From IMG/VR virus record IMGVR_UViG_3300025889_000764, positions 1 through 27,519 of that record: DNA of 27,519 nt; one strand, written 5' to 3'. The notes below the pieces were generated by a model. It had not been told where the DNA came from and made no database searches. It saw only the letters and a program-made list of their open reading frames with translations. Positions 7,675 through 15,595 of this stretch are shown here, one piece after another. This DNA is from a virus. Position 1 is the first letter of the stretch. Every line of letters begins with the position of its first letter. The translations under genes were made by a program, and so were the position numbers.

Positions 7675-8096
7675 TCCCAACTAACAAACTCTAACCACCC
7701 TGCTACCCCTGAGGCTCGTTCGTTCTCCATACGTGCGGCCTCAGTTTTATAGTGTTTAGCGATTAGCTTCTGTTCTTTGTTCATCCTCTTACCGAGGTTG
7801 ATGTCCTCTGCCTTTTCCCTAATCAACCCCAGGGCACCTTCGCCGTAGGTATCGATGTAGTGACGGACAAAGTAATCAGGGTTGCTACCGTACTTCTGGT
7901 GACAGCCGTAGCAGTGAGCGAAGGCATTCATTGCATCGTACCGTATGCCCTTCTTTGACCGGCTGAAGTAGTGGGAGCAGTGCAATCCCGTACTGTTTGA
8001 CTCGTACTGTGCGCCACACCCCTGGCACTTGAATTCATTGCGTAGCCTGACGCACCTACTGAACCAATGATCTGCCGCTGTTCTTTTTAACTTCAC
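7671..8096 (-). CDS. NinG/Rap-like recombination endonuclease (zinc, HNH-type)
   Basis: The 141-residue protein starts at a GTG (8096-8094), which overlaps the TGA of the upstream gene as GTGA, a translational-coupling arrangement. Near residues 24-75 it has CQGCGAQYES, then HCSHYFSRSKKGIRYD, then N-x-FAHCYGCHQKYGSNPDYF. This C-x2-C / H-x2-H / C-x2-C layout with the RYD..N motif is that of lambda NinG (Rap), which processes recombination intermediates. The C-terminus is a charged helix. It sits directly behind a NinB-like gene, as in lambdoid nin regions. The family assignment is by motif and neighbour. Confidence 0.75.
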   Translation of the reverse strand: MKLKRTAADHWFSRCVRLRNEFKCQGCGAQYESNSTGLHCSHYFSRSKKGIRYDAMNAFAHCYGCHQKYGSNPDYFVRHYIDTYGEGALGLIREKAEDINLGKRMNKEQKLIAKHYKTEAARMENERASGVAGWLEFVSWD

Positions 8097-8518
8097 TTCA
8101 ATTCATCCTTTAGTTGTTGAGGGAATGGTACATAGACCTGTTTGTTCTCTGAGAGCCACCTAATTAGCACCTCAGCGGCCTCTGATAGTTCAGCAGGGGT
8201 AAGCTTGGTGGTGGTCTCTTTGTTGAACATGGCCTTTGCAGTGGGCTTGTAGAGCATCTCTTTTACCAGCACCTCAGTAAACGGTATCTCAAAGTTATCA
8301 CTGAATGGATGTCGTACCCAGTAGCCAGCATCATTTAGCTCGATAGCTATCTGCCTGAACCACAAGTGCATGGCGTTGTTCTGCCGGTCACTGCGCGTGG
8401 TGTCCTTGATCGAGTACATGATGTGCTTGCCATCCTCGTACTGCTTTTGCACGAAGCTAATAAAGAACTTCAGTTTGTTTTTGTTATCGACTATCCAGCG
8501 ATGTGCAGGGTCTGTCAT
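8093..8518 (-). CDS. NinB-like recombination protein
   Basis: The 141-residue protein starts at the ATG at 8518, supported by GGAG five bases upstream. The frame is open further upstream through the 9-bp repeats (giving KLG repeats), but that extension has no good ribosome site and reflects the repeat. Visible features are TTRSDRQNNAMHLWFRQIA (about residues 39-57) and VKEMLYKPTAKAMFNKETTTKLTPAELSEAAEVLIRWLSE, followed by VYVPFPQQ. This matches the D-x-QN-A-MH / STT-L / PFP style of NinB (lambda Orf) proteins, which bind single-stranded DNA and SSB and help recombination loading. It overlaps the NinG-like gene by four bases, and the two are probably co-transcribed with the helicase. Confidence 0.65.
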   Translation of the reverse strand: MTDPAHRWIVDNKNKLKFFISFVQKQYEDGKHIMYSIKDTTRSDRQNNAMHLWFRQIAIELNDAGYWVRHPFSDNFEIPFTEVLVKEMLYKPTAKAMFNKETTTKLTPAELSEAAEVLIRWLSENKQVYVPFPQQLKDELK

Positions 8519-8661
8519 ATTATCTCCATTCAGTTTACCCAGTTTACCCAGTTTCCCCAGTTTACCCGTAATCCCCCAGTTTAAACCCCCCACTTATCGG
8601 ACAACCCGCCCCCTACAGAAGGGGATTAGAGGGATTCTGGGGATTCTGGGGATTCTGGGGA
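8519..8661 (+). other. Candidate replication origin: intergenic segment with opposed 9-bp repeat arrays
   Basis: These 143 bases lie between the helicase gene and the NinB-like gene, both on the minus strand. They hold two arrays of 9-bp repeats (listed separately), separated by a core containing the palindrome GTTTAAAC at 8579-8586. Both arrays have G-runs every nine bases, on opposite strands. Iterons beside the replication gene are typical of lambda-like origins; here the location beside a RepA-like helicase is the main support. No experiment or skew analysis was possible, so origin function is inferred. Confidence 0.4.
8531..8566 (-). repeat. 9-bp tandem repeats, array A (CAGTTTACC on plus strand)
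   Basis: There are four units at 8531, 8540, 8549 and 8558: three are CAGTTTACC and one is CAGTTTCCC. A degenerate fifth unit CGTAATCCC is at 8567, and CAGTTTAAA at 8577 begins another. On the minus strand they give runs of three to five G separated by five to six bases, which satisfies the usual G-quadruplex pattern. Confidence 0.85.
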
Positions 8662-8666
8662 TTACA
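8622..8666 (+). repeat. 9-bp tandem repeats, array B (GGGATTCTG)
   Basis: There are five units at 8622, 8631, 8640, 8649 and 8658: GGGATTAGA, three perfect GGGATTCTG, and GGGATTACA. On the plus strand the G-runs of three to four are separated by five to six bases, a G-quadruplex-capable pattern. The last unit runs into the stop codon and final codon of the helicase gene. Confidence 0.85.
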
Positions 8667-9861
8667 TTGGCACCCAGCGATAGAACTTTTTGCCATGCTC
8701 TCCGCGTCTTTCTAGCTGTAGGTTGTTACCCTTCAGCAAGTCGATGCAGTTAAGTAGCTTTTTCCTAGTACAGCCATTGGGGTTAATCTCTTCATCCCGC
8801 AGAAGGTCAACTAACTCTGACTGGCTCCACATTTTGTTACCTTTCATGACACTACTGAGTAGAACATACTCATCTTCGTACTTGCTTATTGCCTTTCCGA
8901 TATTGATCTGCGCTCTCTGCTTTTCCTTTAGCTCGCTGATGTCATCGGTACTCATGAACTGCACAGAATCCACGGACTCTTCGTAGTGAACAACTGCGCT
9001 AGTTTGCTTGTACTTAAACCCACCCTCGAAACTGATCTGGCTCCGATCCTTTTCATTGATTACTAGAAGCTCTTGATAGGCGGCGAACTTATCATTCACT
9101 GGGTCAAGGCCAAACATATTGTCTACGTCTGACTTCAGATCCCCTACACCTTCATAAATCAACCGACCGTCCATGCTTCTGTGCTTGTTACAGTGGCCTA
9201 GCAGAATGACCGTACCGCCTGCCGCCGCAAACTCACGGAAGACGTGTAGCACGTCCCGCATGTCGCCCTTGTTTAACACTGGCGCAAACTTCTTGAGCGT
9301 GTCACAGATAACGATCTTGCCATCGGCCTGGCCCTCTTCGCGTATCGCACTAAGCAGGCGTAGCGCATCATCGGTGTTTCTCAGCATAGGATCTGGCGAG
9401 TTAGCCAGGGTGATCATGGTCATCCCGTGCTTTCTGCCCATCTTTGCCTTCTGGAGTACACCCTTAGCACCGTCGTCTTCGTTGAAATAGATCACGTCGG
9501 AGCCTTTTATCAGGTTATTCCGAATACTTTGGAAAAGGTTTCCCAGTATCCATACCGTCTTGCCTGCTCCGCTAGGTGCGTAGACAAGGGTGACTGTGCC
9601 GGTAGTAATCATGCCTGGTATCACGTCTCGCTCTTTGGCAAGGCGCTCTTCCATCTCTTCAATGCGGTCATTGACTGCCGCGTACATGAGTTTTGATAGT
9701 GCTGATGAGGTTCCGTTTTGCTTGCTGAAATATGGATTGCCTGGGAATGCTTCATTGATTGCTCTTTCTTTCTCAACCCATGATGCGGGTTGTTTAATGT
9801 TGCTTAACGGTACTTCGATTTTATTTTGCTCTTGGCAGTACCAGTCCCAATCGTCGATCAT
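8662..9861 (-). CDS. RecA-fold replicative helicase / RepA-like ATPase
   Basis: This 399-residue protein starts at an ATG with AAGGAG upstream. Walker A is APSGAGKT (about residues 95-102), Walker B is KIVICDTLKKF (about 182-192), and a conserved strand ending in VILLGHCNKH follows (about 218-227), as in RepA/DnaB-type RecA-fold helicases and AAA_25 proteins. An N-terminal helical part of about 85 residues precedes the ATPase. The last 70 residues (WSQSELVDLLRDEEINPNGCTRKKLLNCI) look like a winged helix that could bind DNA. There is no primase or zinc domain, so priming must come from elsewhere, probably the host. It probably drives phage replication with the repeat arrays just downstream. 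Confidence 0.65.
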   Translation of the reverse strand: MIDDWDWYCQEQNKIEVPLSNIKQPASWVEKERAINEAFPGNPYFSKQNGTSSALSKLMYAAVNDRIEEMEERLAKERDVIPGMITTGTVTLVYAPSGAGKTVWILGNLFQSIRNNLIKGSDVIYFNEDDGAKGVLQKAKMGRKHGMTMITLANSPDPMLRNTDDALRLLSAIREEGQADGKIVICDTLKKFAPVLNKGDMRDVLHVFREFAAAGGTVILLGHCNKHRSMDGRLIYEGVGDLKSDVDNMFGLDPVNDKFAAYQELLVINEKDRSQISFEGGFKYKQTSAVVHYEESVDSVQFMSTDDISELKEKQRAQINIGKAISKYEDEYVLLSSVMKGNKMWSQSELVDLLRDEEINPNGCTRKKLLNCIDLLKGNNLQLERRGEHGKKFYRWVPM

Positions 9862-15207: not shown

Positions 15208-15595
15208 TTTTGGGATTGAGTTTGTCATATGGGGGTACTTCATCCATCCACACACTCACCACCATGCGCCACGTATTGCGGCAAATGCTGGCGGGTTAGC
15301 GACTAGGCAAATACAGACAAGAATAAGCAAAAACAGACAGAAAAATAGACAGGGGGAGGGGTAGTTGTAGTTGTTAGGTGTATATTGTACCCACCCAGAC
15401 ACAAAAAAGAGTCATTTCCGCCTTATTCCAACTCCTTGATCCACCTCATGTTTTTATAACTGTTTTGCATTAGCATTCTTATCAGGTAAGGTGGGGCTTG
15501 TAGAGTCCGTAATATATAAGTAGGATAGGGAGGGCGGGTTGGTTAAGTAGATGTTCAAAAAAACATCGAAGCTTTAGCTTAACCTGTGTTTTTTT

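Follow-up and report, generated by a model that had tools for sequence, protein, structure and literature searches.

The window, that is, the whole 27,519-bp stretch of DNA analyzed here, is the IMG/VR virus record IMGVR_UViG_3300025889_000764. It derives from an uncultured, probably marine phage and resembles podoviruses in its genes, which include those for terminase, portal, NinB, and NinG. Between the gene for a NinB/Orf-like recombination mediator and a helicase gene lies an element composed of two facing arrays of 9-bp repeats and a spacer, with the following features.

8093..8518, minus strand: NinB/Orf-like recombination mediator gene, flanking the element (phrog_72, E 2e-9)
8532..8576, minus strand: iteron array A, five 9-bp units (GGGTAAACT/GGGGAAACT/GGGGATTAC), kept in relatives
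8532-8540, minus strand: array A unit 1, GGGTAAACT
8541-8549, minus strand: array A unit 2, GGGTAAACT
8550-8558, minus strand: array A unit 3, GGGGAAACT
8559-8567, minus strand: array A unit 4, GGGTAAACT
8568-8576, minus strand: array A unit 5, GGGGATTAC
8577..8620, no strand: GC-rich spacer (core) of 44 bp separating arrays A and B
8603..8615, minus strand: core box TAGGGGGCGGGTT, kept in relatives, inverted in some of them, and found again in a sub-clade at its second site
8621..8665, plus strand: iteron array B, five 9-bp units (GGGGATTCT type), kept in relatives
8621-8629, plus strand: array B unit 1, GGGGATTAG
8630-8638, plus strand: array B unit 2, AGGGATTCT
8639-8647, plus strand: array B unit 3, GGGGATTCT
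8648-8656, plus strand: array B unit 4, GGGGATTCT
8657-8665, plus strand: array B unit 5, GGGGATTAC
8662..9861, minus strand: helicase gene, 399 aa, with an AAA_25/RecA-type core and a C-terminal winged helix (Pfam AAA_25, E 1.2e-9)
8674..8877, minus strand: winged-helix domain, residues 329-396, proposed iteron reader (AlphaFold2 pLDDT about 90)
8752..8754, minus strand: codon of Leu370 in the recognition helix (Leu occurs with G, T, or A at iteron base 4, Arg with C)
8773..8775, minus strand: codon of Gly363 in the turn preceding the recognition helix (Gly or Ala occurs with A at base 5, Glu or Asp mostly with C or T)

The outermost unit of array B overlaps the stop codon of the helicase gene. 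Aligned in register, both arrays fit a single motif, GGGDAWWCT (where D is any base other than C), placed in opposite orientation around the GC-rich core, and are thus not arrays of different sequence, as the preliminary description had taken them to be. Its count of five units holds for array B, whereas array A, to which it had assigned four, also has five (8532-8576). The opposed G-run arrays that it reported are real and unique in the window: the search of the whole window for four GGG runs at period 9 yielded four overlapping matches, all of them at the element, and none in 100 shuffles. Since an independent contig (L132, 99.94% identity over 8,682 bp) carries the identical element, the arrays are no assembly artefact. 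The GTTTAAAC palindrome that had been noted between the arrays is not conserved, relatives mostly having TAAAAC at this place; the core box that relatives hold in common is (T)TTTAGGGGGC.

The core fold of the helicase resembles Rho, RecA, and Twinkle in a low-confidence structure model, the full-length model being poor outside the winged helix. The predicted winged helix resembles those of the PadR/HxlR type (Z about 9), and residues 366-376 form the recognition helix in this model. Pfam finds AAA_25 alone in the 399-aa protein, with no fused primase domain of the P4 alpha type, and a profile search with the helicase against PDB sequences gave nothing credible. Cultured phages yielded no match to the helicase at E 1e-5, viral contigs yielded many, and the sole match in GTDB genomes is one contig fragment of a MAG. 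No literature on the origin of this phage lineage was found.

The comparison set comprised ~88 distinct relatives (about 90 related phages), mostly represented by fragment records. Nearly all loci, including 22 further distinct ones retrieved with a distant query, have a paired C-array and G-array immediately 3' of this helicase gene. Read on the helicase strand, the stop codon is followed by the C-array and then by the G-array, irrespective of the next gene, and the element stays in place while the flanking genes vary. The preliminary description had named absence of the arrays from close relatives as the outcome that would speak against it; the opposite was observed, the arrays being conserved in place. 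Exceptions to the clean pair are the degenerate arrays of L047-L051, and the elements of some relatives were not cleanly parsed. Across relatives the spacer has a mean GC of 0.57 and contains a conserved GGGGGC box. The orientation of the element is not critical, since the whole element (L037/L108, L049, and L063) or the core alone (L008, L017, and L019) is inverted in place with respect to the flanking genes in some loci.

In some relatives, one small gene separates the helicase stop codon from the arrays. Small genes of several families, one of them mosaic, are inserted directly after the stop codon in L001, L007, L009-L013, L015, L016, and L031, and the gap between the helicase gene and the putative origin looks like a hot spot of gene acquisition. 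One 58,241-bp record, IMGVR_UViG_3300046167_000364 (L004, L125, L139, and L315), contains two modules of helicase, putative origin, and NinB from different lineages, and is probably two phages joined in assembly. The helicase was not detected in other viruses with similar G-rich repeats by a search that was run without a positive control. In these (L083, L097, L103, L119, L130, L136, L142, and L147), repeats of the ACTGGGGAA type are numerous, run in both orientations, and adjoin a gene encoding a protein with an SSB-like acidic tail at its end (..DEVVPF); they are perhaps another iteron origin.

Judged by covariation, the winged helix is matched in specificity to the iterons, which supports the earlier suggestion that it is their binder. 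When residue 370 is Leu, iteron base 4 is G in 69 units, T in 27, A in 7, and C in none (0/103 units); when it is Arg, base 4 is C in 350/359 units (A in 8 and T in 1), the nine non-C units being single degenerate ones. Residue 370 predicts base 4 in every locus with readable units, and no mismatched combination occurs there. Residue 363 probably influences base 5, which is A in 371/396 units when this residue is Gly or Ala and is distributed among C (32), T (13), and A (12) when it is Glu or Asp. A scan of all helicase columns identified 344, 351, and 370 as the only ones that separate the Leu and Arg types perfectly, and all three belong to the winged helix. Columns 344 and 351 are associated equally well. 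The predicted assignment of base 4 to residue 370 draws on one mutational event and the structural position of this residue, plus the unlinked second site described below. NinB was rejected as an iteron reader: the window and L001 have 100% identical NinB despite their differing iterons.

The type has been switched repeatedly among the phage backbones. On the tree of the helicase core (trees were made with a quick search), the type changes eight times, six of these changes being forced by well-supported branches, and base 4 changes along with the type in all of the independent pairs (6/6; sign test p 0.031), whereas on the winged-helix tree one Leu/Arg change suffices. Because the core tree switches repeatedly and the winged-helix tree only once, the residue appears to have changed a single time and the cassette to have moved between backbones since; eight independent mutations at residue 370 were rejected in favor of one mutation followed by repeated cassette exchange. 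Core-sister pairs of different type are about 90-100% identical in the flanks and ~50-80% identical from the winged helix through the end of the arrays, and the DNA profiles of most such pairs have high identity in the core and in the downstream NinB gene. Sister phages are ~95-97% identical in core DNA, sharp divergence being limited to the winged helix and the arrays. Among pairs with >93% core identity, the winged helices are 93% identical if the type is the same and 71% identical if it is different. The window and L001, with 99% identical core proteins and 100% identical NinB, nevertheless differ in type. These sequence patterns indicate that the winged helix and the iterons constitute a specificity cassette that is moved between phage backbones by recombination.

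The match between the two persists where neighboring DNA has been replaced. The gene located between the winged helix and the arrays is 47-80% identical over most of its length in L013 and L016, and both flanks are nearly the same; the intervening gene has thus been exchanged, the winged helix and the arrays remaining of unchanged type. A 93-100% identical patch within this gene is common to L013 (D type) and L011 (C type), so that recombination does reach between the winged helix and the arrays, and mismatched combinations are nonetheless unseen.

A sub-clade has a second iteron array (recorded in L016, L020, L021, L024-L028, L030, L034, L042, L045, and L053), which is intergenic, 8-9 kb away, and upstream of a possible small-terminase gene; the core box is present at this second site in several members. 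In 14/14 records, base 4 of the second site is the one expected from residue 370 (hypergeometric p 0.0003 assuming independence, the records being partly kin). In the sister pair L027/L030, base 4 differs in 3/3 second-site units as predicted, and the close flanks are about 98-100% identical. Simple linkage is ruled out, because this distant site follows residue 370. The second site is perhaps a counterpart of P4 crr, or perhaps regulatory. It is absent from the window's own clade and is therefore not essential; the corresponding region of the window is as follows.

15380..15533, no strand: intergenic region orthologous to the second-site location in L016, L020, L021, L024-L028, L030, and L034; second site absent here

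A conserved box, TAGGATAGGGAGGG, lies at 15500-15533 of the window upstream of the possible small-terminase gene, often following TATATA, and is kept in most relatives, including those without the second iteron site.

Given the covariation, cassette, and second-site evidence, together with the published SaPI Rep, PICI, and PLE systems, we consider it highly likely that the 8532-8665 element is a phage replication origin bound by the winged helix of the helicase itself, the two forming a modular specificity cassette. The facing arrays are very probably the site where DNA replication starts, and the earlier proposal that two binding sites make up an origin next to a RepA-like helicase is strongly supported. 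In the mechanism that we infer, the C-terminal winged helix would bind the iterons and so make the element an origin. Residue 370 would read base 4, with Arg taking C only and Leu taking G, T, or A. A pair of oppositely facing helicase rings would be loaded at the two opposed arrays, producing forks in both directions, and recombination would shift the cassette of winged helix and iterons from one phage backbone to another. Escape from competing replicons or decoys is perhaps what drives the swapping, although this is speculation. Points against the origin reading include the core between the arrays, which is GC-rich and not AT-rich, the degenerate arrays of L047-L051, and the absence of the second site from the window's own clade; moreover, no further replication genes were identified in the window. 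A search of 10 near-complete relatives for DNA polymerase A found none. GC skew, which had been recommended as a means of locating the origin, follows gene strand and is uninformative in this respect.

The same binding by the winged helix could serve regulation and not replication. The arrays would then be an operator, for autoregulation of the replication operon or of the late region, or else a segregation or packaging site, and this we regard as improbable. It would agree with the resemblance of the winged helix to PadR/HxlR regulators, with the position of the element between genes of one operon, and with the location of the second site upstream of a possible small-terminase gene. However, the element is found downstream of the helicase gene and not at its promoter, the paired inverted arrays and the core are kept as one unit, and helicase-fused iteron-binding domains mark origins in published systems (PMC7581432, PMC6092414).

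A DNA G-quadruplex switch or a replication fork barrier, formed by the G-runs on opposite strands, is very unlikely. The rule of four G-runs does apply to both arrays in the window, as stated in the preliminary description, and no other part of the unit is as well conserved as GGG; the rule is not a conserved feature, however, as it holds for the G-array in 44/83 and for the C-array in 32/83 distinct relatives, and a distant clade has only three G-runs per array. Quadruplex formation predicts neither that base 4, a loop base, should follow a protein residue nor that a matched second site should exist, and the suggested fork barrier found no support.

There is only a slight chance that the element acts as structured RNA, such as a hairpin between the arrays, or as a terminator in the helicase-NinB transcript. 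The inverted arms are 74% complementary over 39 nt and fold with -56.8 kcal/mol, but the z-score of this fold is only -1.81, unit positions 6 and 7, which would be paired in a hairpin, agree between the arms in only 12/58 and 9/58 loci, no terminator-like site was found in the element, and neither the covariation with the helicase nor a second site with a single array is predicted. The absence of any functional link, with the winged helix and the arrays matching through shared inheritance as neighbors, would suit their adjacency and the single Leu/Arg change on the winged-helix tree, but is largely refuted and barely credible in view of the agreement in 14/14 records at a site 8-9 kb off, the difference in all three L027/L030 units, the types still matched across the exchanged gene of L013/L016, and the lack of mismatches among loci with readable units.

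The origin and initiator proposed here share features with several known replicons. The lambda ori is a phage origin with iterons inside the O gene, the product of which recruits a separate helicase. The element is likewise a putative phage origin with iterons; unlike in lambda, there are two opposed arrays, and the helicase itself is the proposed reader. Satellite phage P4 has short iterons at ori and at the distant crr, a combination resembled by the putative origin and second site of the sub-clade. The P4 alpha protein includes a primase domain in addition, and its helicase is of the SF3 type, whereas the helicase described here is without a primase domain. Helicase and origin-recognition activities are combined in the one alpha protein (Ziegelin 1993, as cited in PMC8628076), as they would be in the helicase described here.

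The C-terminal domain of SaPI Rep recognizes an iteron origin directly downstream (PMC7581432), and PICI origins consist of two iteron sets around a spacer (PMC7581432, PMC6092414). The layout proposed here is similar in having a helicase with a C-terminal origin-recognition domain, an origin directly 3' of the gene, and two iteron sets flanking a spacer. It differs in belonging to a phage and not to a satellite island, in the RecA-type AAA_25 core, in the inverted arrays of 9-bp units, and in the GC-rich spacer (mean GC 0.57), as opposed to the AT-rich melting region of SaPI/PICI. We did not file the element as a PICI replicon, since the spacer is not AT-rich; the comparisons made of the helicase core cover Pfam AAA_25 and the RecA, Rho, and Twinkle folds. 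In SCCmec, the C-terminal domain of Cch2, when isolated, binds to direct repeats that follow the helicase operon (PMC7581432); Cch2, however, is of another helicase class, with 5-nt AAGTG iterons, and belongs to a staphylococcal cassette. In PLE, satellites of Vibrio cholerae, the DNA-binding domain of RepA covaries with ori, the two have been swapped together at least twice, and only cognate pairs replicate, as determined experimentally (PMC8263062). The covariation of a DNA-binding domain and its exchange with the putative origin are common to both systems, although in PLE the RepA_N domain of RepA is N-terminal and the iterons are semi-palindromic and ~30 bp long, as opposed to the C-terminal winged helix of a phage helicase here.

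If the proposed reading is true, the origin and initiator of an abundant uncultured phage lineage have been located, and the satellite-type layout, in which a helicase with a C-terminal origin reader is followed by paired iterons, would extend to phage. More tentatively, and with somewhat less than even confidence, we propose a compact code, in which a single recognition-helix residue of a RecA-type helicase would set one base in the opposed iterons of 9 bp. The cassette would be swapped repeatedly, the distant second sites changing along with it, under the selective pressure of competing replicons such as satellites or co-infecting phages. The published PLE/Odn conflict is a candidate for such a selective force. 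The lineage would then provide a residue-to-base code that is natural and has been swapped many times, and, as natural matched and mismatched alleles exist, the question of why replicons change origin specificity would become testable.
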